Below, one piece after another: positions 23,220 to 44,293 of a stretch of 64,000 bases of DNA; positions within the stretch are counted from its first letter, which is position 1, and every line of letters begins with the position of its first letter. A model generated the notes under the pieces. The model had not been told where the DNA came from. It saw only the letters and a program-made list of their open reading frames with translations, and searched no databases. The stretch is from Halanaeroarchaeum sp. HSR-CO (GTDB lineage: Archaea; Halobacteriota; Halobacteria; Halobacteriales; Halobacteriaceae). The stretch lies in NCBI RefSeq assembly GCF_024972755.1, contig NZ_CP087724.1, positions 2,666,001-2,730,000 of the forward strand, in the 5' to 3' direction. Position numbers and translations under genes: made by a program.

Positions 23220-24230
23220 TCAATACGGTGGGTGGCCGACCGTATCCAGTTGCTGTATCAGCCGACCCCACTCGTGATAGCTCACGGCGGAGTTCCAGTG
23301 GCCCGTCGCCATGCCCACGAGAACAGCCGTCCCGACGAGCACCACGATGGCGAGGCCGACGGCCAGCGGCGAAACCCGTCGGCCGAGCGTCGAATAGGTG
23401 AGCGCGTCCTCCGGACAGGTCTCGATACACGTGCTACACCGCGTGCACTCGAGGTTCGAGACGGTTTCGAGTTCGTCGATCGCGATCCGGTTCGGGCAGG
23501 CGCGCGTACAGGCGCCACAGTCGGTACACGCGGACCGATCCCGTTCCACGTCGATCGAGACGGGACTCACGCGCCCGACGATCGCGAGGAGCGCCCCGTA
23601 CGGACAGAGATACCGACACCAGACGTCTTCGACGAAGACCGTTCCGAGTACGAGGAGGCCGACGGTCACCACGACGGCGGGGGAGGGCGCGAGCCAGAAG
23701 TCGAGCATCTTCACGGCCGAGACGGCGTTATATGGCGACTGGAGGAATGCGATCGCGTCGGCCCCCGAGAAATCGAAGGCGATGACCTGCAGGAAGAACG
23801 CGAGAACGAGATACTTGATCGACCGCAGTCCCCAGTCCAGGAGCTCTGGTGGGCGGCGTCGGGAGATTCCTATCGACTCGGCGACCAGCCGGAGACGCTC
23901 CTGGAGGAACCCGACCGGACACGCCCAGCTGCAGACCCCCCGCTGGACGACCACGGCAGTCGCGAGAACGCCGACGAAGAGCACGAACGCCGCCGGGTGG
24001 ACTGCGGGCACGTATCCCGTCGACACCCAGGCTTTCACGCCGACGAGGGCACTGAGTGGCAGAAAGGCTTCGACGCTCGACGGCAGCGGTACGTACGGCG
24101 TTCCGTACCGGAAATGAGCGACCCAGGCGACGAACTGGAGACCGCCGACGGCCAACAGGACCGTAACGACCAGTTGCATTCGGGTTCGGACCCACGCCGT
24201 CGAAAGGCAGTCACACAAGCGACGGGACAT
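23220..24230 (-). CDS. NapH/CcoG-like membrane polyferredoxin
   Basis: A 336-residue membrane Fe-S protein. It has about five helices and two Cys pairs of the NapH/NosR type, CSWACPVGF and CRYLCPYGALL. Two classical 4Fe-4S ferredoxin motifs follow, CTDCGACTRACP and CTRCSTCIETCP, and a final helix near the C-terminus. Relatives pass electrons between quinol and soluble or periplasmic Fe-S or heme proteins. Its position near the multiheme cytochrome genes suggests a second electron entry point or a role in keeping the system reduced. The gene is oriented away from the cytochromes, so it is a separate unit. The ATG at 24230 is the first possible; Met18 is an alternative. Confidence 0.87.
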   Translation of the reverse strand: MSRRLCDCLSTAWVRTRMQLVVTVLLAVGGLQFVAWVAHFRYGTPYVPLPSSVEAFLPLSALVGVKAWVSTGYVPAVHPAAFVLFVGVLATAVVVQRGVCSWACPVGFLQERLRLVAESIGISRRRPPELLDWGLRSIKYLVLAFFLQVIAFDFSGADAIAFLQSPYNAVSAVKMLDFWLAPSPAVVVTVGLLVLGTVFVEDVWCRYLCPYGALLAIVGRVSPVSIDVERDRSACTDCGACTRACPNRIAIDELETVSNLECTRCSTCIETCPEDALTYSTLGRRVSPLAVGLAIVVLVGTAVLVGMATGHWNSAVSYHEWGRLIQQLDTVGHPPY

Positions 24231-24344: not shown

Positions 24345-25622
24345 TTACTGTTCCGCGATGGCGGTCGCGGTCCGCTTTCCGTCGACGAGCCGGCCAACGA
24401 TCCCGGCGCGTTCGGTGAACGCTGTACAGAGGTGGATGTCCTCGGGGAGTTCGAGGGCGTCCAAATTGGTCCACGACCGGTCGTAGGCGGGCATTCCCGG
24501 CCGGAGCACGGTGACCTCGATCGGCGTCGCCGGCGCGCCCGTGATCTCCTCGAACTCGGTCGCCGCACGGCGCCCGAGGACCGACGGTTCGGTGGACAGC
24601 GTCGACGGATCGCCGCTGGCGACGTAGGAGGTGTAGATCCCCTCGCGGCCGAGCATGCTGTGGTTCCAGGTTGAGCCGCCGGTGATGTAGCCGTCGTCGA
24701 CGACGTGGAACCCGTGGCCGTGGCCGTCGTACGCCGAGTGGAGATGAACCACGCCGAGTGCGTTGTACGTGAGACCGGCAATTGCGTCCCCAGCCGCTGG
24801 CGCTACCGACTGGAGGAGACTGCCGGCCGTGGGCGCCGGCGTGGCGAGGACGACGGTATCCACAGGGTCGGTACCGTCTTCTGTGTATAGTCGATAGCCC
24901 TCCCCCGCCGTCTCCAGGTCAGTGACGGCCGTCCCCAGGTGGATGCTCTCGGCATGGCGGTCGTAAATCGCCGCCGGGAGCGTCTGGAGACCGTCGGTAA
25001 AGGTGATGATCTCGGGGATGTCGACGCCCTCGCGGAGCTTACCGAGGACAGACCGCAGGACGCTGCCTTCGATGCCGGCGTGCTCGAGGGCCTTGCCCAG
25101 GGAGTACCGGACGTACATCTCATCCGGATCGGAGCCGTAGAGGCCGCTGTACAGCGGCCCCATAAAGCGCGTCGCCGCCTCGCGGCCGAAGGCACGAGCG
25201 AGGTATTCCGCGACCGTCTCGTCGTCCTGGGGGGGACCGGTCAGCGGTTCCAGGAGGACACGTGCCTTGCCCCGCCAGGAGAGCAGGTCGGTAGTGATCG
25301 CTCGACGGACCGAGAGGGGCATTGGTCGCAGGGCACCGTCGAAGTACGCGAAGAGGGGTTGATCGTCGTCGCCGACGACGACCTCGTCGTGGAGGTCGTA
25401 GGCGTCGATGAAGGCCTCGACGGGTCCCGTCGACCGCAGGCGCTGTGGCCCGGTCTCGAGCACGTGGCCGTCCCGGTGGAGCGACGAGACGACCCCGCCC
25501 ACCTCGTCGTCGGCCTCGTAGACCACGACGTCGAACTCGTCGGGAAGATAGTGGACCGTCGCCAGCCCGGACATTCCCGCCCCGATAACGGCGATTCGGT
25601 GCTCCTCACGTGATCCCGACAT
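24345..25622 (-). CDS. Protoporphyrinogen/coproporphyrinogen oxidase-like FAD protein
   Basis: A 425-residue flavoprotein of the PPOX/amine-oxidase group, which oxidises porphyrinogens to porphyrins in heme synthesis. The FAD-binding VIGAGMSGLATVHYL lies at the N-terminus, with the GG and GP motifs in EVGGVVSS...VLETGPQRLR. The central PLYSGLYGSDPDEMYVRYSLG and the C-terminal block around PAYDRSW fit PPOX better than carotenoid desaturases. It is somewhat shorter than bacterial HemY. Haloarchaea generally make heme through the siroheme route, so the exact substrate is uncertain. The location beside c-type cytochrome genes supports a link to heme. Confidence 0.78.
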   Translation of the reverse strand: MSGSREEHRIAVIGAGMSGLATVHYLPDEFDVVVYEADDEVGGVVSSLHRDGHVLETGPQRLRSTGPVEAFIDAYDLHDEVVVGDDDQPLFAYFDGALRPMPLSVRRAITTDLLSWRGKARVLLEPLTGPPQDDETVAEYLARAFGREAATRFMGPLYSGLYGSDPDEMYVRYSLGKALEHAGIEGSVLRSVLGKLREGVDIPEIITFTDGLQTLPAAIYDRHAESIHLGTAVTDLETAGEGYRLYTEDGTDPVDTVVLATPAPTAGSLLQSVAPAAGDAIAGLTYNALGVVHLHSAYDGHGHGFHVVDDGYITGGSTWNHSMLGREGIYTSYVASGDPSTLSTEPSVLGRRAATEFEEITGAPATPIEVTVLRPGMPAYDRSWTNLDALELPEDIHLCTAFTERAGIVGRLVDGKRTATAIAEQ

Positions 25623-29327: not shown

Positions 29328-31115
29328 ATGACTGAATACCCAGTCCGTACCGTGGCATGGGTGATCGGGTTGGCGGTGGTGGTCACCGTCCTGGTGGGCG
29401 CCGGCGCGGCTGCGCCGACCCTGGCTTCCGCGCAGCCCGCCGACGACACGTCGACAACCGTCGACGTGGCCGACGAGACGCTAGAGGAAGGGGCCCCGGT
29501 GGACAACGAAACGCAACGCTGTATCGCCTGTCACGAAGACAACCATCCCGGGATGGTCGAGGACTTCAAGACGAGTGCCCACTACGATTCGGGCATCTCC
29601 TGTCTCGACTGTCACGAGGCTGCTGACGACGAGCCGTCAGCACAGAAGCACTTCGGCAATGTCATCTCGCCGCTGGTGACGCCGAAGGACTGTTCGGACT
29701 GTCACGCCGAGGAGACCGAGGAGTTCCACGATAGCATGCACGACGAGTCGGCGTTCTACTCGGCGAGCGCACTTTCGAACGCCGACGCCGGCGACGCAGC
29801 GATGCCGACCGGGTGGAACGACAACGTGCTGTCGAACAACGCCCGAGCGACCGCCGAAATGGGCTGCCAGTCGTGCCACGGCGCCGAGCTGAAGGTCCTC
29901 GACGACGAGAACCCGAACGAGCCCGAGGACGACGTGACGATTCAGGGCTATCCGAACCAGGGAATGGGGCGGTTCAACCCCGACGGATCGATCGGTTCCT
30001 GTGCGGCCTGTCATCCCCAGCATAGCTTCAGTCTGGAGCAGGCTCGGTCGTCCGGCTCCTGTACCAAGTGTCACCTCGGCCCGGACCACCCCCAGAAGGA
30101 GATCTGGAAGGAGTCCAAGCACGGAAAGATGTACCACCACTACGAGGACGAGATGGACCTCGGGGCCGAGCAGCTGACCACCGACGACGTGAAGGCGCCG
30201 ACCTGCGCGGTCTGTCACGTGTCCGGCCTCAACGACAACGAGGCTACCCACGACGTGAGCTCCCGCCTGAAGTGGACCACGGAGACGGTCTACTCCTACC
30301 CGACCTCCGAGAAGTACATGACCGGCGAGTCGGACTACGAGCTCGATGACGAGGTGGCAGCTCACTACGAGGAGCAGTACGATCTCGAGGAGGGGACGCT
30401 GGATTCCGTCCCCGCCGGCGCGCCGAACCCGTTCGCCGCCCTCGAGACCCACCGTCCTGATCTCTACGAGGAGTACGTCGTAGAGAACGACGAACAGTAC
30501 CCACAGATCGACGAGGACTACGAGCCCACGCGCTGGGACTCCTACGACGGTGAATCCCAGGCTCCGGCGGAGGTCAAACGCGAACGCATGAAATCCGTCT
30601 GTACGGAGTGTCACTCCGAGACCTGGGTCAATCAGGAGTTCATGAAACGTGACGAGGTCATCGACCAGTACAACGCCGTGTTCACGGCCGCGACCGTGAA
30701 ATATTACGAGCCGATCAAAGACCAGGCTCCCGTCGCCTCCCCCTACGGCGAGAGCTGGGTCGACAAGATCCACTGGGAGATGTGGCATCACGAAGGTCGC
30801 CAGTGGCGGATGGGTGCGATGATGGGTGGCCCTGACTACGAACACTGGCACGGCTCCTACGAGGTAGAGAAAGACGTCCTGCAACTCGCCCACATGAAGG
30901 ACGTCATCGAGAGTACCGACGCGGGCACCGAGCCGAAAGAGGAAAAAGGAGAAGAGCAGGAGAGCGTGGACGACGAGTCGGTCGAGGAACAACGACCGGC
31001 AACGGTCGCGCCGCGCCTGCCCACCGGAATCCCCGGCATCGGTGCCGGAGCGATGGCAGGGGTCGGCGTCCTCGGTGTCGGGGCCGTGGGCCTCTACTGG
31101 CGCCGCGGCTACTGA
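29328..31115 (+). CDS. Membrane-anchored octaheme cytochrome c, hydroxylamine oxidoreductase (HAO) type
   Basis: A 595-residue extracytoplasmic cytochrome with a Sec signal (about 8-36). Eight CxxCH heme sites start at residues 65, 92, 122, 180, 225, 245, 293 and 425. The long gap before the last heme, GPDHPQKEIWKESKHG after heme 6, and the late blocks HWEMWHHEGRQWRMG and GPDYEHWHGSYEV are those of octaheme HAO-like proteins. Relatives oxidise hydroxylamine or hydrazine, or reduce nitrite; the reductive forms lack the Tyr that crosslinks the active heme, which I cannot decide without alignment. An acidic linker leads to a C-terminal helix (about 568-590), so it is anchored at both sequence and membrane level. 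NrfB/C/D-like genes nearby suggest reduction with quinol. Confidence 0.9.
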   Translation: MTEYPVRTVAWVIGLAVVVTVLVGAGAAAPTLASAQPADDTSTTVDVADETLEEGAPVDNETQRCIACHEDNHPGMVEDFKTSAHYDSGISCLDCHEAADDEPSAQKHFGNVISPLVTPKDCSDCHAEETEEFHDSMHDESAFYSASALSNADAGDAAMPTGWNDNVLSNNARATAEMGCQSCHGAELKVLDDENPNEPEDDVTIQGYPNQGMGRFNPDGSIGSCAACHPQHSFSLEQARSSGSCTKCHLGPDHPQKEIWKESKHGKMYHHYEDEMDLGAEQLTTDDVKAPTCAVCHVSGLNDNEATHDVSSRLKWTTETVYSYPTSEKYMTGESDYELDDEVAAHYEEQYDLEEGTLDSVPAGAPNPFAALETHRPDLYEEYVVENDEQYPQIDEDYEPTRWDSYDGESQAPAEVKRERMKSVCTECHSETWVNQEFMKRDEVIDQYNAVFTAATVKYYEPIKDQAPVASPYGESWVDKIHWEMWHHEGRQWRMGAMMGGPDYEHWHGSYEVEKDVLQLAHMKDVIESTDAGTEPKEEKGEEQESVDDESVEEQRPATVAPRLPTGIPGIGAGAMAGVGVLGVGAVGLYWRRGY

Positions 31116-31175
31116 TCGGCCCGTTCACGGTTTTCACGCCGTCTGCGCTGAGCATCATCGGCCCGCCGTGGGCAG

Positions 31176-31216
31176 GTTATTTAACCCCGGACTATCTAAT
31201 TACGCATATTGGTGAG
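31176..31216 (+). promoter_or_regulatory. Promoter and ribosome binding site of hemA
   Basis: GTTATTTAA (31176-31184) is a TATA-like element. GGTGAG (31211-31216) lies 4 nt before the ATG at 31221 and favours that start over the in-frame TTG at 31209 and GTG at 31212. Confidence 0.5.
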
Positions 31217-31220
31217 CAGC

Positions 31221-32465
31221 ATGGAAGCTCTGCATGGGGCATTCGTCACGCACAGGCGAGCCTCACTCTCGACGATCGAAGCCGCACGGTCGGTCGACGT
31301 GGAAGCGACGCGCGAGCGATTGCTGGCCCATGGTGCCAGCGAGGCCTTCGTCCTCCAGACCTGCAACCGGGTGGAGCTGTACGTGCGCGGCCCGCCGACG
31401 ACCATCGCTCGGGAACTCGACCGGATCGAGGTGCCCGAGGAGGTCGTCGACCGGGCCCAGGGCGAAGCAGTCGCACGGCATGCCCTCCAGGTGGCTGCCG
31501 GCCTCGAGAGCATGGTCGTGGGGGAGGACGAGATCCTCGGCCAGTTCTCGACGGCCACGGAGCAGGCCCGCGAGGACCTCGGCGGCCCGCTGGAAACGGT
31601 CCTCGATAAGGCCATTCGTACGGGCAAACGCGTCCGCTCCGAGACCGCGATAAACGAGGGGCACGCCTCGATGGGGACGGCGGCCGTCGATCTCGCAAAT
31701 CGACGATTGGAGGGGCTCTCGGGGGCGACGGCACTCGTGGTCGGCGCAGGGGAGATGGGGCGAAGCGTCGCCGGTCCCCTCGCGGATCGGGGGGCCGAGG
31801 TCCTGGTCACGAATCGGACCTACGAGACCGCACGCGAACTCGCTGACGCGGTCGGGGCCACGGCGACCTGTTTCGACTCAGTGGCGAGTCGGTTCCCAGA
31901 CGTCGACGTCCTGTTCAGTGCCACGGACGCTCCACACCGGATCTTTGAGTACGACGACCTCCACGGGGAGCGCTTGCTCGCGATCGACCTGGCGAACCCA
32001 CGGGACATCGACGATTCCGTCGCCGAGGCGAGTGGGATCGACCTGTACGACATCGACGACATCGGTGCCGCCGTCGACGAGTCTATCGAACGCCGGGAAT
32101 CGGTCCGCGATCGGGCAGAGGCGATCGTCGAGTCCGAACTCGACCAGCTGGCGGACCTCCTCAAACGTCGCCGCGCGGACGAGATGCTGGGCCGCATCTA
32201 CAGCGAGGCCGAGCGGATCCGTCGCGAGGAGACCGAGCGAGCCATCGACTGCGTCGACGCCGACGTCGACGAGGCGGTCTTCGAGCAGTTCGCCTCCTCG
32301 ATCGTCAACCGCCTGCTCGCCACGCCGACGAAGTCGATCAAGGAGGCCGCGGCCGACGACGACTACGAGACCCTCGAGACCGTCTCGACGGTATTCCAGA
32401 TCGGCGAGTCCGCCGGGCATCGATCCGAGAACGCCGCGTCCTCACCATCCATCGAGAACTCATGA
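31221..32465 (+). CDS. hemA: Glutamyl-tRNA reductase
   Basis: A 414-residue NADPH-dependent enzyme that reduces glutamyl-tRNA to glutamate-1-semialdehyde, the committed step of tetrapyrrole synthesis. The catalytic Cys48 lies in LQTCNRVELY. GLESMVVGEDEILGQ, the AIRTGKRVRSETAI helix and the nucleotide-binding VVGAGEMGRSVA follow, then the C-terminal dimerisation helices. The stop codon overlaps the ccmE start by 4 nt, so heme precursor supply and cytochrome c maturation are translationally linked. In most haloarchaea hemA sits with other heme genes, so this placement is notable. Confidence 0.95.
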   Translation: MEALHGAFVTHRRASLSTIEAARSVDVEATRERLLAHGASEAFVLQTCNRVELYVRGPPTTIARELDRIEVPEEVVDRAQGEAVARHALQVAAGLESMVVGEDEILGQFSTATEQAREDLGGPLETVLDKAIRTGKRVRSETAINEGHASMGTAAVDLANRRLEGLSGATALVVGAGEMGRSVAGPLADRGAEVLVTNRTYETARELADAVGATATCFDSVASRFPDVDVLFSATDAPHRIFEYDDLHGERLLAIDLANPRDIDDSVAEASGIDLYDIDDIGAAVDESIERRESVRDRAEAIVESELDQLADLLKRRRADEMLGRIYSEAERIRREETERAIDCVDADVDEAVFEQFASSIVNRLLATPTKSIKEAAADDDYETLETVSTVFQIGESAGHRSENAASSPSIENS

Positions 32466-32845
32466 AACGAACCCATCGCATCCTCCTGGGCGCCATCGTG
32501 ATCGCCGTCCTCGTCGGGGTCGTCTCGACCTCGATGGGGACGACCACCGCAAAGGTCTCCCCGGGCGACCTCCAGTCCGGAGAGTACGACGGCGAGTACG
32601 TCATCCTCGAGGGGCTGGCGACCGACGTCCGAATCGGGAATACCGTTACCCTGACCGTGGTCGGCAATAGCTCAGAGACGCGCACGGTCGACGATAACGC
32701 CACCGAGGCGAGTGTCCCCGCGGTAGTCACTGACGATTCGATCCCGGCGACCCTCGAATCCGGCCGAATCGTCGTCCTCGAAGGTACCTACGACGACGGT
32801 CGGTTCGAGGCTTCCTCCGTGATGGTCAAGTCCCACGAGCAGTAA
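32462..32845 (+). CDS. ccmE: CcmE-like heme chaperone (short form)
   Basis: A 127-residue membrane-anchored OB-fold protein. It has an N-terminal helix (7-25) and the CcmE order of strands, ending ESGRIVVLEGTYDDGRFEASSVMVKSHEQ-stop when read in pieces. The final K-S-H-E segment aligns with the KHDE of bacterial CcmE, whose His binds heme covalently (His125 here). The Tyr that follows four residues later in bacteria is missing because the protein ends first. CcmE accepts heme exported with CcmABCD and hands it to CcmF. The 4-nt overlap with hemA and the other ccm genes nearby support the call. Confidence 0.83.
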   Translation: MKRTHRILLGAIVIAVLVGVVSTSMGTTTAKVSPGDLQSGEYDGEYVILEGLATDVRIGNTVTLTVVGNSSETRTVDDNATEASVPAVVTDDSIPATLESGRIVVLEGTYDDGRFEASSVMVKSHEQ

Positions 32846-32960
32846 CGCGACGCCACCGCGGACCCAGACTCGGTTGCCGGCGTACCACCGGTGACGCGTT
32901 GAAGGAGCAGGCGGCACCGAACGCCGATTCGCGTGGCGATCGACACCGAAAACGAGTGGC

Positions 32961-33065
32961 CTACAGCCGTTCTTCGAGGCGGGACAGCGAGCGCTGCAGG
33001 TAGTACTGGTAGCCGACGATCAGGGTGAAGACGATGCCGTACGCGACGAGGAGTTTGAGGTACAT
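32961..33065 (-). CDS. ccmD: CcmD-like micro-protein (34 residues)
   Basis: A 34-residue protein starting at ATG 33065, 2 nt after the ccmC stop. It consists of one helix (YLKLLVAYGIVFTLIVGYQYYL) cut at residue 23 and a basic/acidic tail ending RLEERL. This is the design of CcmD, the tiny subunit that joins CcmC and CcmE in the heme-handling complex. It is easily missed because of its size. Position right after ccmC makes the call likely although similarity at this length is weak. Confidence 0.75.
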   Translation of the reverse strand: MYLKLLVAYGIVFTLIVGYQYYLQRSLSRLEERL

Positions 33066-33067
33066 GG

Positions 33068-33751
33068 CTATCGACCTCCGGTTGCACAAATGACGGTGTC
33101 ACGGACTCGATGCACGCGATACCTGACCGCAGCGAGCGAGACGAACAGCACGGTCACCGCGACGATGGCCAGGAGTAACGCGGTCGGTTCGATGACGGTC
33201 CCACTCGATTCGGCCCCGACCGTCGGATCGTGAAACGCCGGGTTCCACAGCCGGGTCGAGACGTAGGAGACCGGAATGGTGACGAACCCGAGCACGCCGT
33301 AAGCGGCGGCGAACCGGTCCTCGGAATCGCGTGTCGCCGCGAACACCAGCAGGTACCCGAGATAGACGAGCCAGGTGATGAACAGCGTCACGAGCCTGAC
33401 GTCGCCCCACGACCAGTAGGTCCCCCACATCTCGCTGCCCCAGATACTTCCCATCGCGAGCGTGCCGGTCAGGAACACGAAGCCGACCTCCCCGGTGCTG
33501 TGAGCCAGGAGGTTGAACCGGCGGGTTCTGGTGTGGAGGTACCACGCGCTCGCCCCGAAGGTGATCAGGAGTGCGACACCGCTCACCCAGGCCAGGGCGA
33601 TATGCCAGTACCCGATGTAGTTCACGGGGGCCACGACGCCGTACATGCGCGGAGTCGTGAACACGAACATCGCGACGAACGAGGCCAGCCCGAAGAGGAG
33701 CGCGCCGGCCGGGAGAACGGCGGTATCGCGAATGGTCTTCGATGCGCCCAT
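33068..33751 (-). CDS. ccmC: Heme-handling protein CcmC
   Basis: A 227-residue membrane protein of six helices. The Trp-rich WWD-type motif, IWGSEMWGTYWSWGD (about 103-117), binds heme and is flanked by external histidines (His50 in YWHIALAW, His84 in AHSTGEVG, His174 in NPAFHDP). CcmC loads heme on CcmE. The ATG at 33751 is preferred over a 15-codon longer form. It is transcribed with ccmD and divergent from the tetraheme cytochrome gene, with 82 nt between starts, so heme delivery and its client are probably co-regulated. Confidence 0.92.
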   Translation of the reverse strand: MGASKTIRDTAVLPAGALLFGLASFVAMFVFTTPRMYGVVAPVNYIGYWHIALAWVSGVALLITFGASAWYLHTRTRRFNLLAHSTGEVGFVFLTGTLAMGSIWGSEMWGTYWSWGDVRLVTLFITWLVYLGYLLVFAATRDSEDRFAAAYGVLGFVTIPVSYVSTRLWNPAFHDPTVGAESSGTVIEPTALLLAIVAVTVLFVSLAAVRYRVHRVRDTVICATGGR

Positions 33752-33759
33752 ACGCGAGA

Positions 33760-33772
33760 CGAGCGGGGCTCG
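33760..33772. promoter_or_regulatory. Candidate operator: 5-3-5 inverted repeat between ccmC and tetraheme gene
   Basis: CGAGC, GGG and GCTCG form a short perfect inverted repeat just upstream of ccmC in the 82-nt divergent region. In this GC-rich sequence it could be chance. Confidence 0.25.
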
Positions 33773-33801
33773 AAGGATAACGTTTGCCCCTCGCAACCGG
33801 A

Positions 33802-33811
33802 GTTTTATACT
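33802..33811 (+). promoter_or_regulatory. TATA element of the tetraheme cytochrome operon
   Basis: GTTTTATACT lies about 27 nt upstream of the ATG at 33834. This fixes the start there and implies a leaderless transcript for the operon of tetraheme, Fe-S and NrfD-like genes. Confidence 0.6.
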
Positions 33812-33833
33812 GAAGGCGGTACGTGGACGAAAT

Positions 33834-34532
33834 ATGGGCAGTCAGCAGGATCACCCAGCCGTAGTTACGACGTTCTTGCTGGTACTCGCCGTCGTCGGCG
33901 TGTTTACCGGCATCGCCACCGCAGGCGGTGGAACTGGCCCGCCCGGGGCGGGCGGCGAGGACGTCGCCACCCCGGACGCACACGCTACCGCGTTCGAAGA
34001 GGACTGGCCGTCGGCCGACGAGGAAGCGACGTGCGAGCGGTGTCACGCGACGATGGAGACGAACCGAACGCCTCGCGACCTCGAAAACGAGGTGAAATAC
34101 CAGCCCAACCACGAATTCGACCTCGAACACGCCGATGGACAGTGGTGTCTGGACTGCCACGCGGCGGACAACATGAACGAACTTCGGCTGCCGAACGGCA
34201 GCACCGTCGCGTGGACGACCGAAAACGAGACCAAGCAGTGTGCGTCCTGTCACGGCCCGGTCTACGAGGACTGGACCAACCAGGTGCATGGAAAGTGGAC
34301 GGGTTCCTACGAGGAGCCGGTCCCGGATAAGTACTGTACGGACTGTCACGACCCACACGATCCCGAGTTCCACGCGATCGAGCCAGACCCAGCCCCCGAG
34401 GAACCGCCCGCCGGCCCCGCGGTCGCCCAGGCCGTGTTGCCGGGTGGCTACTACGCGGCAGTCGGGCTCGCCGGGACGCTGATCGCGGGACTCCTCGGGT
34501 ACGCGGCACTCGATCTCAGGAGGCGACCATGA
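33834..34532 (+). CDS. Membrane-anchored tetraheme cytochrome c
   Basis: A 232-residue cytochrome with an N-terminal hydrophobic segment (10-30), four CxxCH heme sites at residues 67, 105, 136 and 168, and a C-terminal helix (about 204-226) ending in RRRP. It lies in one operon with an NrfC-like and an NrfD-like gene, with its stop overlapping the next start by 4 nt. That is the place of NrfB or similar small multiheme carriers, so it probably takes electrons from the Fe-S subunit and gives them to the octaheme enzyme. It does not look like an NrfH or NapC homologue, which have the hemes right after an N-terminal anchor. Confidence 0.88.
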   Translation: MGSQQDHPAVVTTFLLVLAVVGVFTGIATAGGGTGPPGAGGEDVATPDAHATAFEEDWPSADEEATCERCHATMETNRTPRDLENEVKYQPNHEFDLEHADGQWCLDCHAADNMNELRLPNGSTVAWTTENETKQCASCHGPVYEDWTNQVHGKWTGSYEEPVPDKYCTDCHDPHDPEFHAIEPDPAPEEPPAGPAVAQAVLPGGYYAAVGLAGTLIAGLLGYAALDLRRRP

Positions 34533-35560
34533 GTGATTCCACGACCGATCCCGGTGTACCGGACGCGGACGACGACGGCGTCGACGAGGACCGCCGACAC
34601 GTACTGAAAGCCACGGCCGGCGCGGCTACCTTCGCCATCGGCGGGGTAGCAGCGTCACAGCAGCCCGAAGCAGCCGATCTCCTCCAGAAACATTACAAGA
34701 AAATGGACGCGACGGAGCGAGAACAGCTCGTCGATAGACTGGAGTCGCGTCTCCAGGAGGAGTACGATACACCGGAGATCGAGGTCTCGACGACGAAGCC
34801 ACCTGACGACACCGTGTTCGGATACGCGTTGAACGTCGAGGCCTGTATCGGGTGCCGGCAGTGCGTGTACGCGTGCGCGGATGAGAACAATATCTCTCGT
34901 GAGACCGAGGAGAACCCGGCGTCGAACCAACTCCACTGGATCCGGGTCCTCCGCTTCGAAGACTCCGAGATCGAGGTCGACCCCGAGGGAGACGGGCCGA
35001 TCGGGATGGACGTCTCCAGCGAGTTCGGCGACGTCTCCGCCGGGGTCGACTGGGAGGAAAGCGATCACTACTACGATCCGGAGGCGGTGCCCGAAGAGGA
35101 CGCCTGGTATCTCCCCGTCCAGTGCCAGCAATGCGAGGACCCATCCTGTACCGAGGTGTGTCCGGTACAGGCGACCTGGAAGGAAAAGGACGGGATCGTC
35201 GTCGTCGACTACGATCGGTGTATCGGCTGCAAGTACTGTGTGACCAACTGCCCGTACGACGCCCGACGGTTCAACTTCAGCCACCCCGAACTCCCCGACG
35301 ACGAGGTCAACCCCGAGATGCATTATCTGGGGAACCGTCCCCGACCGGGGGAGGTCGTCGAGAAGTGCACGTTCTGCGTCCAGCGGACCCGCGAGGGGGA
35401 GTATCCGGCCTGCGTCGACGCGTGTCCGGTCGGGGCCCGAAAATTCGGCAACCTCCTCGACGAATCCGGCGAGATCCGGACGATCCTCGACGAGAAGCCG
35501 GTGTTCCGACTCCGTCCGGAACTCGGGACCGAACCGAAGTTCTTCTACTTCACGGAGTAG
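34529..35560 (+). CDS. NrfC/PsrB-like protein with four 4Fe-4S clusters
   Basis: A 343-residue electron-transfer subunit. A twin-arginine motif (EDRRHVLKATAGAAT) near residue 22 suggests export in folded form. The Cys groups are CIGCRQCVYAC, CQQCEDPSCTEVCP, CIGCKYCVTNCP and CTFC...CVDACP, enough for four 4Fe-4S clusters as in NrfC, PsrB and DmsB. There is an insertion of about 50 acidic residues between the first two groups. It overlaps the tetraheme gene by 4 nt and precedes the NrfD-like gene by 4 nt, so the three proteins form one quinol-to-heme electron path. Confidence 0.93.
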   Translation: MSDSTTDPGVPDADDDGVDEDRRHVLKATAGAATFAIGGVAASQQPEAADLLQKHYKKMDATEREQLVDRLESRLQEEYDTPEIEVSTTKPPDDTVFGYALNVEACIGCRQCVYACADENNISRETEENPASNQLHWIRVLRFEDSEIEVDPEGDGPIGMDVSSEFGDVSAGVDWEESDHYYDPEAVPEEDAWYLPVQCQQCEDPSCTEVCPVQATWKEKDGIVVVDYDRCIGCKYCVTNCPYDARRFNFSHPELPDDEVNPEMHYLGNRPRPGEVVEKCTFCVQRTREGEYPACVDACPVGARKFGNLLDESGEIRTILDEKPVFRLRPELGTEPKFFYFTE

Positions 35561-35564
35561 TACC

Positions 35565-36839
35565 ATGTCAACGCCACAGACCTCGACACGGAGTACCACC
35601 CGGCGCCTCGCATCGTTCCTGAAAGCCGGCGTGACCCACGCACTGACGGGTTCGACCCGCTATTACGCCTGGCTCGCCGCCCTCGCGATCGGGATCGTGC
35701 TCGGACTGTACACCTACGCCCAGCAGGTCCAGCACGGTCTCATCATCACGAGCGCCCGCCACCTGAACCCGTGGGCCACGCTCGCGTATGCCCAGTTCCC
35801 CTTCTTCGACGGGATCGCGGCCGGTGCGATCGTCGTCGTCGCCATCGCGTACGTCTACGCGCGGCCGGACTTCGAGTCGGTCGCGGTCTTCGGGTGGGCG
35901 CTGGCCGTCAGCGGAGCGATCGTCTCCATCGCGAGCGTTCTTTCGATGCTGGGAAGTCTGGAGCGACTCGTCTACATCTTCCCCATCGTGGGGACGCCGA
36001 ACTTCCCAATGTCGATGCTACCCTGGGACGTCGTCGTACTCAACGGCTTCCTGCTAGTCGCACTGGTCGTTCCCGGGTACGTGCTCTTCAAACGCTATCA
36101 CGGCGAACGACCCCATCCCTGGGTGCGATACGGGGCGTACCTCGCGGTGGCCGGTGCCCTGGCGCTGCAGGCGGTCGTCGCGGCGATCATCATCGTCAAT
36201 CCGATCCGGAGCCTGTGGTACACCGCGCTGATGGTGCCGCGATTCATCACGAGCGCGGCCGCCGCTGGGTCCGCTCTCGCCATCCTCGTGCTCCTGGCGA
36301 TCCGCCGGTCCGCGTCGGGGGCGCTCGCCCTGACCGACATCGACATCGAGGATCGGACCCTCTCGACGCTTGGCCACGTAGTTGTCATCGCTCTCGCGGT
36401 GAACGTCTTCGCCGTGCTCTCCGAGATATTCATGCTCACGTGGACGGGGACCGAACACGGCCTCACGATGCAGTATCTCCTCTTCGGTCTGGACCACGCC
36501 GGCACGACCTACAACATGCTGACGCCGGTCATGTGGCTCTCCATCGCGCTCGAGGTCGGGGCCCTCCTCCTCTTGCTCCATCCCCGCGCCCGGCGGCACA
36601 TCCGGACGCTCTCGATCGGGGCCGGAGCAGCCTTCCTCGGCGTCTTCCTCGAGAAAGGGGTCATCCTGTTCATCTCGGTGTTCGTCGTCTCGCCACTGGG
36701 CGAGGTGTACGAACCGTCCTTTACCGTCCCCGAAGTCGTCATGGCCGGGGCGATGTGGGCGCTCGGCGCGCTCGTGTTCACCCTGCTCGCGAAGGCGGCG
36801 ATCGGTATCAGGACCCGGGATTCGGCCGAAAACTTTTGA
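35565..36839 (+). CDS. nrfD: NrfD/PsrC-like quinol-oxidising membrane subunit
   Basis: A 424-residue membrane protein with about nine to ten helices, of the NrfD/PsrC/HybB type. Recognisable parts are FFDGIAAGAIVVVAIAYV in the second helix, the acidic residue in LSEIFMLTWTG, the ALEVGALLLLL helix and the LEKGVILFISVFV segment near the end. Such proteins exchange electrons between the quinone pool and a bound Fe-S subunit and may move protons. It has no heme ligands of a cytochrome b. The preceding Fe-S and tetraheme genes are its expected partners. A 66-nt gap separates it from the next gene. Confidence 0.92.
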   Translation: MSTPQTSTRSTTRRLASFLKAGVTHALTGSTRYYAWLAALAIGIVLGLYTYAQQVQHGLIITSARHLNPWATLAYAQFPFFDGIAAGAIVVVAIAYVYARPDFESVAVFGWALAVSGAIVSIASVLSMLGSLERLVYIFPIVGTPNFPMSMLPWDVVVLNGFLLVALVVPGYVLFKRYHGERPHPWVRYGAYLAVAGALALQAVVAAIIIVNPIRSLWYTALMVPRFITSAAAAGSALAILVLLAIRRSASGALALTDIDIEDRTLSTLGHVVVIALAVNVFAVLSEIFMLTWTGTEHGLTMQYLLFGLDHAGTTYNMLTPVMWLSIALEVGALLLLLHPRARRHIRTLSIGAGAAFLGVFLEKGVILFISVFVVSPLGEVYEPSFTVPEVVMAGAMWALGALVFTLLAKAAIGIRTRDSAENF

Positions 36840-36905: not shown

Positions 36906-37346
36906 ATGAATCGAAAACTAGTGTTGACCGGCGGTTTCGTCGCAGTGCTGCTCGTCCTGGCCATCGGCACCTCCATGACGATGCTCTCGGGAGAAGCCGA
37001 CAGGCACGGCGGTATCGACTGGGAAAGCGACGTCGACGCGGCACTGACGGAGGCGAACGAGACGGAGACGCCACTCCTATTGTACGTCTGGATGGACGAT
37101 TGCGGGGCCTGTGAGGACTTCGGCGCCCGTCTCGCGGAGGACCGACCGGCGGCCCTTGACGCGTACGTGCTCGCGGAGACCGACCTTGGCTCCGAATCCA
37201 CTGCGGAGCAGTACGGCGTCTCGGCCACGCCGACGCTCGTCGTGATCGCCCCAGACGGGACGAAGGTAACGACCATCAACCCGGTCGCGGTGGACGACCT
37301 CGACGAGCGGCTCGACCGGGCTCACGAGAACGCGAGTGACCCCTAA
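36906..37346 (+). CDS. Membrane-anchored thioredoxin-like protein
   Basis: A 146-residue protein with an N-terminal membrane anchor (about 6-27) and an outside thioredoxin domain. The redox pair is CGAC (Cys66, Cys69) in VWMDDCGACEDF, and the cis-Pro is in VSATPTLVVI. The gene lies 3 nt before ccmF, so it probably reduces or presents the heme-binding cysteines of apocytochrome, a job that CcmG and CcmH share in bacteria. It could also act like the DsbD C-terminal domain. No CcmH gene is visible, which makes this protein a candidate replacement. Confidence 0.85.
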   Translation: MNRKLVLTGGFVAVLLVLAIGTSMTMLSGEADRHGGIDWESDVDAALTEANETETPLLLYVWMDDCGACEDFGARLAEDRPAALDAYVLAETDLGSESTAEQYGVSATPTLVVIAPDGTKVTTINPVAVDDLDERLDRAHENASDP

Positions 37347-37349
37347 GTT

Positions 37350-39662
37350 ATGATCGGCACAGCATTACAGTACGGCGCGGCGGTAGCGGGATTCGGTGCG
37401 GTGATCGCCCTCTGGTACGCGAACCGGGAGGCCGAGTACGCCCGATACGGCGTCTACTTGCTCGGCACGGCGAGTCTCCTGGCGGTGCTTGCGCTGTTCT
37501 ACCTCGTCAATCAGTTCCTCGTCACCGACTACACGAACGGATACGTCTGGAACCACACCGCCGACTATCTCTCGACGCTCTACCGGATCACCGGTGTCTA
37601 CGCGGGCGTCGAGGGGTCGCTGTTGCTCTGGGCGACCCTGGTGGCGCTCATCGCGTACTGGGTCGTCCGCTCCGGGGTGGAAACCGCCGACGAACGCCTC
37701 GTCGCAGCCATCGTGACGACCGTGGCGACGGTCATCCTGGCGTACTCGATTACCCGTACGCCCTTTACCGCCCTGGACATCAGTGGGCGTGGGACGGCGT
37801 TCGGTCCTGTGGGGCTGAATCCGCTGTTGAAGAGCCCGTACATGATAATCCACCCGCCAGTGACCTTCGCAGGCTACGCGCTGACGACAGTCCCGTTCGC
37901 GATCGGGGCGGCCCACTTCATTCGGAAGAGCCGTGGCCGGGACGGAATCTTCGAGCAGAGGCTTCCCGAGGCGACCCGATGGCTCCGCCTCGCCTGGTGG
38001 TTTCTCACCGCCGCCGTGGCACTCGGCGCCCTCTGGTCGTACACGACCCTCGGCTGGGGCGGTCTCTGGGCCTGGGACCCCGTCGAAACCGCGATCCTCG
38101 TGACCTGGTTGTTCGTGACGGCCGCGATGCACGCCGTCTCCAACTACCGGTTACGTGGGGCGAATCCCGTCCTTGCTCCCGCGATGGCAACCCTCACCTT
38201 GCCGAGTGCCATCTTCGCGCGGGTGATTACCCAGTCGGGCACGTCGGATCTCCACTCCTTCGCCAGCGGCTCCCCGACAGTGCTGGTCGTCTTGCTGGCG
38301 GTGTCCCTCGCCATCGGCGTGGGACTGCCCTTCTACGTCTGGATTCGACGGCCGGAATCGCAAACGGAAACGACGGGGATACTCTCCCACCACCGGCTGC
38401 TTTACGCTGGAATCCTCACTATCGGCTTGCTCACGTTCGTCTCGTTCTGGGGGATCACCTTCCCCCTGCTACAGACGCTCCTCGGAGGCCCGGAGGTTAG
38501 CGTGGGCGTCGACTTCTACAACATGTGGAGTTTTCCCCTCGTGGTCGTCGTGTTGCTCGCGATCGGCTTTTACAATGATTTCGACGTCAGAGGCGAGGAC
38601 GCCGGTCGGCTGCTCGGGGCCGTCGTCGTGTTGTCCCTCGTGGCCGCCGTGATTCCGCTCTCCGAGTGGCAGTTCAACCCGGCGAAGACGGGCGGGTACT
38701 ACGGTCTCGTCGGGAGCCTCAACGCGTTATCCCTGTTTCCGCCGGCCGCCTATGCCATCGGCGCGACGCTCTCCAGGCTCGCCGTCCGACTGCCGTCGCT
38801 GCCCGATCGCGACCGCCAGCTGACCCTGGGGGGCGTCGGTCTCGTCCACATCGGGCTGGCGGTGATCGTGCTCGCGACGCCGTTCACCTACATGTTCGCG
38901 GTCTCCGGGTCCGGCATGGTTCCGGCAGTCTCGATGGGTCACGAGGACGGCGTGACCCTGGACGAATCGCCGTACACCGTCGCGGTCGAGAACTACTCCA
39001 GCGACTACATCGAAAGCGACCTGTCGCTCTCGGCGGTCGAACGCGAGGCGGTCCTCGATCGAATCGACGACAGGGCCTACCGGGCCGATTCGCTCCCCGA
39101 ATCGGCCAGCGGCGATCAGATCGTCTACGGATCCATCACGGACCTGCGGATAGAGGACGGTACCGGAATCGCGCAGCTCGACAACTCCTCCGTGTGGGTC
39201 GACGTCGGGCCGGCCGGTAACAACACGAGCGTCGAGGGCGTGCCGATCTACGCCCAGGGAACCATCAACCGGTCGATGGACGAGATGACCTTCGTGCGGA
39301 CCGACGGCATGTTCGTCGGCACGCAACCGACCGGGGCGATCGTCCCGGACAGCCGTGCGAGCGACCGCGAGGTCGAGTTCGTCGTCTCTCAAGGGAACGA
39401 GACCCTTGCTGTCGGCTCCACGGACGTCGAGACGTATCTCACCTACGGGGCCGTCGCGAACCCATACGTGGACCGCGGTCTGTTCTCGGACACGTACGTC
39501 GCGGCCAAGCAGGTGCAGTTCACCGGGGGCATGCCGGTAGTCTACATCCTCGTCAAGGAAGTGCCGCTGATGAGCGTGGTCCGCTTCGGCATCGTGCTAT
39601 TGCTCCTCGGCGGGGCGATGCTCGCCGCCGCGACCCCACGGAGCCGTCACGGGGGTGAGTGA
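37350..39662 (+). CDS. ccmF: Cytochrome c heme lyase CcmF
   Basis: A 770-residue membrane protein of at least twelve helices, the synthetase that joins heme to the CxxCH motifs. The heme-handling WWD motif GWGGLWAWDPVE is at residues 235-246. VWNHTADYLSTLYR, the EGSLLLW helix and the HPPVTFAGYAL histidine region follow the family order. A soluble outside domain lies near the C-terminus (about 525-730) before the last helix. The gene comes directly after the thioredoxin-like gene and before a lipoprotein gene. Length and motifs are complete, so this should be functional. Confidence 0.95.
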   Translation: MIGTALQYGAAVAGFGAVIALWYANREAEYARYGVYLLGTASLLAVLALFYLVNQFLVTDYTNGYVWNHTADYLSTLYRITGVYAGVEGSLLLWATLVALIAYWVVRSGVETADERLVAAIVTTVATVILAYSITRTPFTALDISGRGTAFGPVGLNPLLKSPYMIIHPPVTFAGYALTTVPFAIGAAHFIRKSRGRDGIFEQRLPEATRWLRLAWWFLTAAVALGALWSYTTLGWGGLWAWDPVETAILVTWLFVTAAMHAVSNYRLRGANPVLAPAMATLTLPSAIFARVITQSGTSDLHSFASGSPTVLVVLLAVSLAIGVGLPFYVWIRRPESQTETTGILSHHRLLYAGILTIGLLTFVSFWGITFPLLQTLLGGPEVSVGVDFYNMWSFPLVVVVLLAIGFYNDFDVRGEDAGRLLGAVVVLSLVAAVIPLSEWQFNPAKTGGYYGLVGSLNALSLFPPAAYAIGATLSRLAVRLPSLPDRDRQLTLGGVGLVHIGLAVIVLATPFTYMFAVSGSGMVPAVSMGHEDGVTLDESPYTVAVENYSSDYIESDLSLSAVEREAVLDRIDDRAYRADSLPESASGDQIVYGSITDLRIEDGTGIAQLDNSSVWVDVGPAGNNTSVEGVPIYAQGTINRSMDEMTFVRTDGMFVGTQPTGAIVPDSRASDREVEFVVSQGNETLAVGSTDVETYLTYGAVANPYVDRGLFSDTYVAAKQVQFTGGMPVVYILVKEVPLMSVVRFGIVLLLLGGAMLAAATPRSRHGGE

Positions 39663-41159: not shown

Positions 41160-41241
41160 ACTCGATGGTCGGCCGACGCCGGCAAAAAGGCCCCGATAGG
41201 GACCACAAGTTCTTATTGAGCGGCGACCCTTGGACTACGCG

Positions 41242-42188: not shown

Positions 42189-42836
42189 TCAGGCGACCAG
42201 TTCTTCGAACACCAGCAGGCCGCCCGTGAACACGATTCCGTCGTAGCCGGCGAGGACGGTGAGCCAGTTCCAGCCCTCGGCACCGAACAGCGCGATGCCC
42301 GCCAGTAGCGCCGGGATAATGAGCGGAACGAGTAACACGGGAACGAGCAGATCGCTGATCGAGGTGTAGATCGTCATCGAGGCGATCACCACCGCGACGG
42401 CGGCGAACCCGACGGCGAACAGCACGACGACGAGAACGAGGACGGGGATCGGGGCCGCCGGCGCCGTCCCGAGGAACACGCGGGTCGCCAGTACGGTGAA
42501 CAGACCGACGAGCGAGACGTACACGGCCCCGCTCAAAACTTTGCCCACGTAGATGGCCGAGTACGGGACGGGAGCCAACAGCAATCCGTCGAGAGCGCCG
42601 TTTTCACCCTCGATGCCGACGCTCTGCATCACCCCCAGGGTGCCGGCGAACACGAACGCGACCCAGACGGCACCGGCGTGATGGCGGCCGTCGAAGGCGA
42701 ACGCGAAGACGACCACGACGAGCAGCGAGAGTGCCGCCGCCATGGGCAACGCGCGTTTCGCCCGCGCCTCCAATCGGAAGTCCTTCGCGGCGACGGCCCA
42801 GACCACGCGAGCGTACCGGCGGGCGTCCGCGATCAC
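42189..42836 (-). CDS. ccmB: Heme exporter membrane subunit CcmB
   Basis: A 215-residue membrane protein with six helices. The opening AVAAKDFRLEARAKRAL, the GIEGENGALDGLLLAPV segment after helix 2 and the final helices fit CcmB, the permease part of the CcmAB ABC complex that works with CcmC to release heme-loaded CcmE. It overlaps ccmA by 4 nt and follows it in one operon. The position on the strand opposite to ccmF and ccdA shows that the ccm set is spread over several units. Confidence 0.9.
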   Translation of the reverse strand: MIADARRYARVVWAVAAKDFRLEARAKRALPMAAALSLLVVVVFAFAFDGRHHAGAVWVAFVFAGTLGVMQSVGIEGENGALDGLLLAPVPYSAIYVGKVLSGAVYVSLVGLFTVLATRVFLGTAPAAPIPVLVLVVVLFAVGFAAVAVVIASMTIYTSISDLLVPVLLVPLIIPALLAGIALFGAEGWNWLTVLAGYDGIVFTGGLLVFEELVA

Positions 42837-43510
42837 GCGACGACCTCCCGATACCGATTCCGAAGCGTCTCGGGGCCGTCGACCGGGCCCTCGATCCGAG
42901 CGACGATCCGCCCCTCGTCGAGGACGAGATATCGCTCACAGAGTCGGGCACTGAGGTCCTGCTCGTGGCTGACCAGCACGACCGTCCGGTCGGCCATCAT
43001 CGATCGCAGTGTGGCGCGCGAGTGCTGGTCGAGCCCCGTGAACGGTTCGTCCAGAAGCAGGACCGCTGGATCCGCGAGCAACGCCCGGGCGAAGGACAGC
43101 CGTTTTTGCATCCCGTGGGAGAACTCCCGGGGAAAGCCGTCGGCCCGATCGGCGAGATCGACGGTCTCGAGGACCGCCCCGACCCGTTCGGCGTCGACGC
43201 CGAGGAGCCGGGCGTGAAACGCGAGGTTCTCCCGCGCGGTCAGGTCGTCGTAGAGCATCGATTCGTGGGAGAGATACCCGATCGACCCGTCGGCCCGCCC
43301 CGATCGACTGTACTGGTCGACGCCATCGACCGCGACGGTCCCCGAACTGGGGGTGGCGAGACCGGCGAGCATCCGGAGCAGGGTCGTCTTCCCCGAGCCG
43401 TTCGGGCCGAGTATTGCCACGGATTCGCCCGTCCGGACGGACAGCGAGACGCCGTCGACCGCGGTGAAGGGGCCGAACCGCTTCGACACCTCGTCGGCGA
43501 CGAGCTTCAT
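42833..43510 (-). CDS. ccmA: Heme exporter ATP-binding subunit CcmA
   Basis: A 225-residue ABC ATPase. It has Walker A GPNGSGKTT, the Q-loop segment YLSHESMLYDDLTARENL, the signature FSHGMQKRLSFARALL with a divergent first residue group (SHGMQ in place of SGGQ), Walker B VLLLDEPFTGLD and the switch His in VLVSHE. The SHGMQ signature and the ATG at 43510 are typical of CcmA. A longer in-frame opening upstream is rejected because homology begins at KLVADEV. It powers release of heme from the CcmC-CcmE complex. Confidence 0.92.
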   Translation of the reverse strand: MKLVADEVSKRFGPFTAVDGVSLSVRTGESVAILGPNGSGKTTLLRMLAGLATPSSGTVAVDGVDQYSRSGRADGSIGYLSHESMLYDDLTARENLAFHARLLGVDAERVGAVLETVDLADRADGFPREFSHGMQKRLSFARALLADPAVLLLDEPFTGLDQHSRATLRSMMADRTVVLVSHEQDLSARLCERYLVLDEGRIVARIEGPVDGPETLRNRYREVVA

Positions 43511-43544
43511 CGGTCGACGGTTCGTCCGCGGCGAACTTAAACAC

Positions 43545-43566
43545 CGGTTGATCGATGGGACAACCG
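43545..43566. promoter_or_regulatory. Candidate operator between ccmA and the zinc-motif gene
   Basis: CGGTTG and CAACCG form a perfect inverted repeat with a 10-nt spacer that itself contains ATCGAT. It lies directly upstream of a TATA-like TGTTTAAGTTC of ccmA (minus strand, about 43532-43542), the usual place for an activator or BRE-adjacent factor in haloarchaea. Confidence 0.4.
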
Positions 43567-43594
43567 TTAGGCGACTGGAAGTCGTCGTTCGACC

Positions 43595-44293
43595 ATGAAC
43601 CGCGACCCGCCATGGTTCGACGACGGGCCGCCGACCGACGTCCTCGAGACGATCCGCGATCGGCGGGATACCGCCTCTGCACACCGAGAAGCGTTCGAGG
43701 AGGCGATGGAAGCACAGGAGTACAGCGCCGCAATCGAGGCAAAGCGCGCTTACCAGTTGGCCGTCTTCAAACGACGGCAGGCCGAGGGCGAACTCCTCTG
43801 GACCGCACTCGGGCACGCCATCGCAGACGTCGCGGCGTCCTTCGATCCGGACGCGGCCGCCGTCGAACGTCGCGGTGCGGCCTTCGTCCGCTGGGCCATC
43901 GACGCCGACGTTCTCGCGTCGATCGACTCGCGTGATCGTCTCCTCCTGGTCGTCGCTCGTCGCTCGCCGACGCTACCCGCCGCGCACGCTCCCTACGCCG
44001 AATCCATGTTCGGCGTCTCACGTGAAGACATCGCGACCAAACGGGAGCGAGATCAGTCCCGGCTGAGTGCGGCGGGCTGGAAGCGCGAGACGGGGCGAGG
44101 CGGGGCGGTCGGTCTCGTGACCTGTCCCAACTGTGACGGCCGATTTCCTGTTCGTCGATCGACCGGGGCATCGGCGACGATCTCGGCCACTTTCGATGGG
44201 GGGGACGACGCGATGCACGAGTTCTGTCCACACTGCGAGAGCGACGTCTACGTGCGCATCTCGCCACCCGACCGTGAACGTAATGGCAAATGA
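43595..44293 (+). CDS. Unrecognised protein with C-terminal zinc-ribbon-like motif
   Basis: A 232-residue soluble protein without signal or membrane segment. The first 70 residues form a charged helical region (EAFEEAMEAQEYSAA). The C-terminal third has two CxxC pairs, CPNC at 177-180 and CPHC at 211-214, the geometry of a zinc ribbon. The gene is divergent from ccmA and is followed by the TlpA-like and CcdA genes within 16 nt, so it belongs to the maturation cluster by context. I know no family for it. It could be an RNA- or DNA-binding regulator, or a redox-sensitive zinc protein. Confidence 0.7.
   Translation: MNRDPPWFDDGPPTDVLETIRDRRDTASAHREAFEEAMEAQEYSAAIEAKRAYQLAVFKRRQAEGELLWTALGHAIADVAASFDPDAAAVERRGAAFVRWAIDADVLASIDSRDRLLLVVARRSPTLPAAHAPYAESMFGVSREDIATKRERDQSRLSAAGWKRETGRGGAVGLVTCPNCDGRFPVRRSTGASATISATFDGGDDAMHEFCPHCESDVYVRISPPDRERNGK

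Follow-up and report, generated by a model that had tools for sequence, protein, structure and literature searches.

Introduction

Among the closest described systems to the one reported here are loci of two thermophilic bacteria without NrfA, in which a HaoA homologue, NrfD, a 4Fe-4S protein and a cytochrome are encoded beside nap and for which nitrite reduction has been proposed (Slobodkina et al. 2017, PMC5276818). In this study, we analyzed a stretch of 64,000 nucleotides from the haloarchaeon Halanaeroarchaeum sp. HSR-CO (the window; contig NZ_CP087724.1, G000:C1:2666001-2730000, of a 2.79-Mb genome in two contigs), which carries an island encoding an octaheme cytochrome of the hydroxylamine oxidoreductase (HAO) type and a tetraheme/Fe-S/NrfD module. 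We put the probability at roughly 60% that this island encodes a respiratory reductase that depends on quinol, acts at the outer face of the membrane and reduces nitrite, most likely with six electrons to ammonium. Likened by description, the thermophile loci share with the island an HaoA-homologous multiheme protein, an NrfD-family protein, a 4Fe-4S protein and a membrane cytochrome c; however, they belong to thermophilic bacteria with Nap, whereas the present island belongs to a haloarchaeon with a predicted pNar nitrate reductase and contains ccm genes and a second hemA. The island is a new, haloarchaeal variant of this type of locus.

Other described systems resemble it in part. In NrfABCD of Enterobacteria, as proposed here, quinol oxidation by NrfD is combined with an Fe-S subunit, a small multiheme cytochrome and a multiheme reductase on the outer face, but NrfA is a CxxCK pentaheme that is not of the HAO type and NrfB is a soluble pentaheme. 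The epsilon-HAO of the reverse hydroxylamine:ubiquinone redox module (reverse-HURM; Nautilia, Campylobacter) and Kuenenia HAOr (6h5l), for which nitrite reduction has been proposed or shown, are HAO-family proteins without the cross-linking Tyr, as is the haloarchaeal octaheme. They differ in electron input: epsilon-HAO depends on quinol oxidation by an NapC/cM552-type tetraheme and Kuenenia HAOr uses kustc0457, whereas a tetraheme, an Fe-S and an NrfD protein are found here.

The octaheme cytochrome and its relatives

An earlier sequence-only reading of this DNA had described an octaheme cytochrome with eight CxxCH motifs and a C-terminal anchor and, 2.7 kb away, an operon for its electron supply. 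The open reading frames are as described:

29328..31115, + strand: predicted octaheme HAO-family cytochrome (IhOCC-type), 595 aa, eight CxxCH
30303..30569, + strand: insertion of ~90 residues between hemes 7 and 8 of the octaheme (residues ~326-414)
33834..34532, + strand: tetraheme cytochrome, four CxxCH, signal peptide, C-terminal membrane anchor
34529..35560, + strand: four-cluster Fe-S subunit with a twin-arginine translocation (Tat) signal (RRHVLK), DsrO/ActB-C-terminal/NrfC superfamily
35565..36839, + strand: NrfD-fold quinol-dehydrogenase membrane subunit (DsrP/ActC-like), PF03916

The octaheme protein has a signal-like segment at its N-terminus, and its C-terminal membrane anchor is hydrophobic. 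All eight heme motifs are CxxCH, including that of the catalytic heme 4 (C180-C183-H184), which aligns with C229-C232-H233 of HAO. A family profile built from 18 archaeal proteins (the window's own and 17 homologues) matched IhOCC, the octaheme cytochrome c of Ignicoccus hospitalis (PDB 4qo5), over its full length with E=2.5e-114, and HAO (1fgj) with E=3.7e-60. An AlphaFold model was obtained with a predicted local distance difference test (pLDDT) score of 74.5 and a predicted template-modelling score (pTM) of 0.74. With this model, Foldseek returned 4qo5 as best match (6.6e-20, TM 0.58/0.66), followed by HAO and HDH entries as the only other confident matches. Profile, tree and fold search thus bear out the HAO-type assignment of the sequence-only reading, and the protein is almost certainly an HAO-family cytochrome. 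The catalytic heme site of Otr is CxxCK. The same site is carried by ONR (PMC8840924). An identity as ONR or OTR was rejected: no CxxCK occurs in the octaheme, ONR (3sxq) was matched only with E=6e-9 over ~90 residues, and OTR was unmatched in the profile search.

In a mixture-model tree of 44 proteins, the octaheme grouped with proteins from a euryarchaeal metagenome-assembled genome (MAG; L041) and from Nitrospirota HyVt-545 (L042) with support of 100/96, although its long terminal branch makes the exact placement less certain than such values suggest. This grouping is supported independently by the ~90-residue insertion, which is common to the three proteins; the other members inspected lack it or have a far shorter one. 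The enclosing clade (100/99) comprised these three, IhOCC, the Hydrothermarchaeota proteins and the presumably Archaeoglobi-like family f21 (a further family, f19, is presumably methanogen-like). By its sequence, the octaheme is placed in the archaeal IhOCC clade. IhOCC, the best match by profile and fold, is also membrane-associated according to the title of Parey et al. 2016 (cited in PMC8840924). The two proteins differ at the cross-link position, which is Thr in IhOCC and His in the haloarchaeal protein (Tyr in neither), in the active-site pair (DV versus the HAO-type DH), in the heme 7-8 insertion and in isoelectric point, 7.9 in IhOCC versus 4.3 in the strongly acidic haloarchaeal octaheme.

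Multiheme cytochromes were claimed from the outset to be unusual in haloarchaea, and this was confirmed: none of the 391 other genomes sampled from the order carries the octaheme, and a 2015 survey of archaeal cytochromes c recorded no multiheme cytochromes in haloarchaea (PMC4429474). Matches in two genomes of the order (G324, G122) were not octahemes, comprising only tail or N-terminal segments with E ~1e-4, and the genus sibling (G101) contains neither the octaheme nor ccmF. Beyond the order sample, the distribution is that among the matches listed and is a lower bound. A scan of viral contigs gave no match and a plasmid search yielded three distant records only. Contamination or a chimeric assembly was rejected, as the island lies inside a 2.75-Mb contig and has normal GC content at third codon positions; a net acid value of 0.153 for the octaheme, compared to a maximum of 0.110 among the homologues in the set, also counters it.

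Direction of the reaction

In an alignment of 105 sequences, the column of the cross-linking Tyr467 of Nitrosomonas europaea HAO is occupied by His506 in the octaheme. Tyr occurred at this position in the N. europaea reference only and in none of the 102 new sequences, while the active-site Asp-His pair is kept in the octaheme (D253-H254, aligned with D267-H268 of HAO). Loss of the Tyr is taken as a mark of reductive HAO (PMC8940962, PMC2628731). The octaheme thus combines HAO-family membership and a retained Asp-His pair with a missing cross-link Tyr, as in reductive HAO. With His506 in place of the Tyr that is cross-linked in oxidative HAO, reduction is expected, and the octaheme very probably works in this direction. 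The nitrite-reduction model of the sequence-only reading came through both the alignment and the tree, in which the octaheme did not group with a protein of proven other function.

The predicted quinol module and its probable coupling to the octaheme

We scanned 100 octaheme loci from other organisms for the module and for neighbouring genes. Fe-S and NrfD genes were found beside the octaheme gene at 11 of them, and a matching tetraheme was also detected in nine. The operons with the order tetraheme-FeS-NrfD-octaheme (L079, L085, L095, L103, L105, L108, L118) occur in Phycisphaerales, Verrucomicrobiota and a Campylobacterota MAG. As in the haloarchaeon, homologous tetraheme, Fe-S and NrfD genes lie near an HAO-family octaheme gene, but the four genes are usually contiguous there, whereas hemA-ccmE-ccmC separates octaheme and module in the haloarchaeal island. 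In full alignments, the Fe-S subunits of these bacterial operons are 46-53% identical to that of the window and the NrfD subunits 32-36%; for the Fe-S subunits of the 11 loci, BLAST gave 45-52% over ~255 residues. In the Fe-S subunit tree, the window protein joined the octaheme-operon set with support of 99/99 and stood separate from both the PsrB-type paralogues of haloarchaea and the Archaeoglobi-type subunits.

A genome-wide search for the CxxCH pattern at the DNA level gave 100 hits, with runs only in the octaheme (eight) and the tetraheme (four); one further pair of motifs lies within a ferredoxin-type subunit. The organism therefore seems to have no multiheme proteins besides these two cytochromes. 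Since the same operons are conserved in other phyla and octaheme and tetraheme are the sole multiheme proteins of the genome, coupling of the quinol module to the octaheme is supported, as originally suggested, and we are highly confident that the predicted Fe-S/NrfD quinol module works with the octaheme. The octahemes of the bacterial operons form a separate bacterial clade, and forcing the haloarchaeal protein together with them lowered the log-likelihood by 99, so that joint grouping was rejected. The nearest relatives of the octaheme gene and of the Fe-S gene differ, so the system looks mosaic, with an octaheme of archaeal type combined with a quinol module of bacterial type; either octaheme and input module were joined from different sources, or ancestral archaeal partner genes have gone unseen.

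The naming of the module as NrfC/NrfD with a tetraheme was only partly correct. The module is present, but its Fe-S/NrfD pair is, by sequence comparison, closer to DsrO/DsrP and to ActB/ActC of alternative complex III than to NrfCD. The Fe-S subunit reached 116 bits against the NrfC equivalog (cut-off 378) and 178 against DsrO (cut-off 200), and the best equivalog of the NrfD-fold subunit, DsrP, was matched at 198 bits (cut-off 350); the nearest PDB profiles of the pair were ActB/ActC and PsrB. On these scores and profiles, plain NrfCD naming was rejected. NrfC/NrfD equivalog scores lie far below cut-off, and besides octaheme and tetraheme the genome contains no CxxCH cluster as expected of NrfABCD. 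Likewise, with DsrO and DsrP scores below cut-off and no DsrMK or Act partner genes among the annotated neighbours of the module, it does not correspond to a DsrOP or alternative complex III module either. The tetraheme reading frame is open from 33645, and homologue alignment places the natural start near the ATG at 33834; its predicted structure (pLDDT 50) was too poor and was not used.

Some of the scanned loci showed further cytochrome genes. The tetraheme-FeS-NrfD-octaheme operon of two Phycisphaerales MAGs has a 13-heme cytochrome gene immediately before it (L079:1054-2787, L080:1098-2783). In several phyla, the gene next after that of a short-form octaheme encodes a pentaheme of ~490-500 aa (L087, L089, L090, L093, L106, L113); the sole one scanned (L090) has an NrfH-like core scoring below the family cut-off.

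Substrate and product

We infer the electron path, direction, substrate and product of the octaheme system as follows. The NrfD-fold subunit would oxidise menaquinol, and the Tat-exported Fe-S subunit and then the tetraheme would carry the electrons to the octaheme, both cytochromes being anchored in the membrane. There, nitrite would be reduced outside the membrane, most likely with six electrons to ammonium, and pNar would supply the nitrite on the same membrane side.

Two lines of evidence bear on the substrate. A NapA-like gene lies beside the octaheme gene at 10 of the 100 loci, exceeding the curated NapA cut-off in three (L103, L109, L054). One of these has the order tetraheme-FeS-NrfD-octaheme-NapA (L103), the closest bacterial relative has napA-napG-napH-octaheme (L042), and in Hydrothermarchaeum (L081) and at L154 the NapA-like gene directly follows the octaheme gene. 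Furthermore, the genome encodes a type II Mo-enzyme operon comprising Rieske, cytochrome b, alpha and beta subunits, one further open reading frame in the position of an ethylbenzene-dehydrogenase-related gene, and a TorD-type chaperone. This order is that of the pNar-type operons of Haloferax larsenii and Halarchaeum, and the synteny with these haloarchaeal operons points to a pNar nitrate reductase. Family searches of the genome revealed neither a NirK above cut-off nor a siroheme nitrite reductase (NIR_SIR), and likewise no NO reductase (one COX1 only, of the aa3 type) and no Hcp; NrfA was not detected. If pNar produces nitrite outside, the octaheme is, by elimination from these searches, the only nitrite sink found.

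A reverse-HURM with Hcp was rejected, as the prismane match proved to be CooS. This anaerobic CO dehydrogenase (G000:C1:861826-863538, L198; 594.6 bits, cut-off 478) is encoded in the same genome as an aa3-type oxidase; the genus sibling has no CooS/Hcp match.

Several observations weigh against a nitrite-reducing system of this kind. The NapA-like neighbours of L042, L081 and L154 reach 630-700 bits where the curated cut-offs are 904-931, and 90 of the 100 octaheme loci have no NapA in the stretch examined, including the f19 loci examined. The clade mates L041 and L042 show no tetraheme/Fe-S/NrfD module in the stretch examined. The type II Mo enzyme reached 553 bits, below the NarG equivalog cut-off of 1084, and its operon lies ~0.53 Mb from the island. 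That other nitrite sinks are lacking is known only from targeted family searches, and the Tyr-less Kuenenia HAOr makes NO, slowly (PMC12485887). Gene context and gene content favour nitrite among the acceptors considered in the sequence-only reading, which had left the acceptor inferred, as it remains. Taken together, nitrite is the probable substrate, while for ammonium as the product the odds appear even. That the haloarchaeon performs dissimilatory nitrate reduction to ammonium (DNRA) wholly on the outer face, by pNar and the octaheme in a mosaic system with its own heme-synthesis and maturation genes, is a tentative proposal for which we see slightly less than even chances.

With the same electron path, the octaheme may instead take nitrite only to NO or hydroxylamine, or detoxify these compounds without sustaining growth. 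This is in line with the reduction of nitrite to NO by the Kuenenia enzyme, with the hydroxylamine product proposed for the Nautilia reverse-HURM (PMC2628731) and with the NorB-resembling heme-copper protein and diheme cytochrome adjoining the L042 octaheme. However, neither an NO reductase nor Hcp was found that would remove NO or hydroxylamine, and a dedicated quinol module with a hemA/ccm island would be costly for detoxification alone; we consider this alternative unlikely. Somewhat less likely still is extracellular electron transfer or another acceptor, with the octaheme feeding Fe(III), tetrathionate, sulfur or another sulfur compound outside the cell. Several Psr/Ttr-like Mo enzymes are encoded in the genome, the genus includes sulfur respirers (PMC5437934), the octaheme family is broad with many members lacking N-cycle neighbours, sulfur metabolism often involves NrfD and Fe-S subunits (DsrOP), and a sulfur role was kept possible for the similar locus of Slobodkina et al. 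(PMC5276818). On the other side stand the lack of octaheme and ccmF in the genus sibling, the recurrence of NapA as an octaheme neighbour, confident fold matches to HAO-type proteins only (the S-layer undecaheme 6qvm gave E=0.2) and eight CxxCH motifs, unlike the CxxCK of Otr and ONR. Finally, an oxidative HAO or HDH, oxidising hydroxylamine or hydrazine and passing electrons into the quinone pool through the module in reverse, would share the fold and D253-H254 with the octaheme but was rejected as highly improbable on account of His506 and the lack of Tyr at this column in all new sequences.

Heme synthesis and cytochrome c maturation genes

Octaheme and module sit inside an island of cytochrome c maturation genes (ccmE, C, G, F, B, A) that also holds a second hemA; the sequence-only reading had made no mention of the hemA and ccm genes between and after them. 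The flanking genes are:

31209..32465, + strand: second glutamyl-tRNA reductase hemA (TIGR01035, 290/209.6 bits), 93 bp after the octaheme gene
32462..32845, + strand: CcmE-like heme chaperone (PF03100), 4-bp overlap with hemA
33071..33796, - strand: CcmC-like heme handling protein (PF01578; TIGR01191 81 bits, below cut-off)
36906..37346, + strand: membrane-anchored thioredoxin-like protein in the CcmG position
37350..39662, + strand: CcmF heme lyase (PF01578, PF16327; NrfE/CcmF 170-172 bits, below cut-off)
42189..42836, - strand: CcmB (PF03379)
42833..43816, - strand: CcmA ABC ATPase (TIGR01189, 139.2/131.6 bits); start of the reading frame probably over-extended
24345..25622, - strand: protoporphyrinogen oxidase (TIGR00562, 126/98 bits)
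23220..24230, - strand: NapH/NosR-like polyferredoxin membrane protein

The ccm genes and the second hemA would serve to build the cytochromes. The genome contains two full glutamyl-tRNA reductase genes, with the other copy at G000:C1:2330120-2330533. The CcmE-like protein ends in VMVKSHEQ and has no C-terminal HxxxY or CxxxY heme-binding motif, and no continuation was found in another frame. Among the 25 family members, CcmF occurs in one other (G151, two copies), and G095 has a fragment with stops only. The protoporphyrinogen oxidase gene adjoins the NapH/NosR-like gene 4-6 kb upstream of the island; judged by position, the former may be a heme supply gene linked to the island and the latter possibly an accessory of it.

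The region between protoporphyrinogen oxidase and octaheme genes (26578-28988) encodes the rod-determining factor RdfA together with a partner that has a long, SMC-like coiled coil; Haloferax larsenii has a comparable pair close to the pNar operon of a plasmid (L199). Two lipoprotein-like DUF7537 proteins are encoded between ccmF and ccmBA (39666-40412 and 41230-42180), the second just below the family cut-off.

Significance

Haloarchaeal nitrate respiration has been described as denitrification by Nar, NirK, Nor and Nos (PMC8966722). Octaheme-dependent nitrite reduction outside the cell, which is probable here, would be a respiratory step not known from haloarchaea, and the island, together with the maturation genes it carries, is a candidate locus for ammonifying nitrite under salt saturation. 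The locus ties the poorly understood archaeal octahemes of the IhOCC type to a defined quinol module, so that direction and substrate become testable. In this HAO-type enzyme, the nearest relatives of the octaheme gene are not those of the electron-input genes, which also bears on the spread of the multiheme enzymes of the nitrogen cycle.

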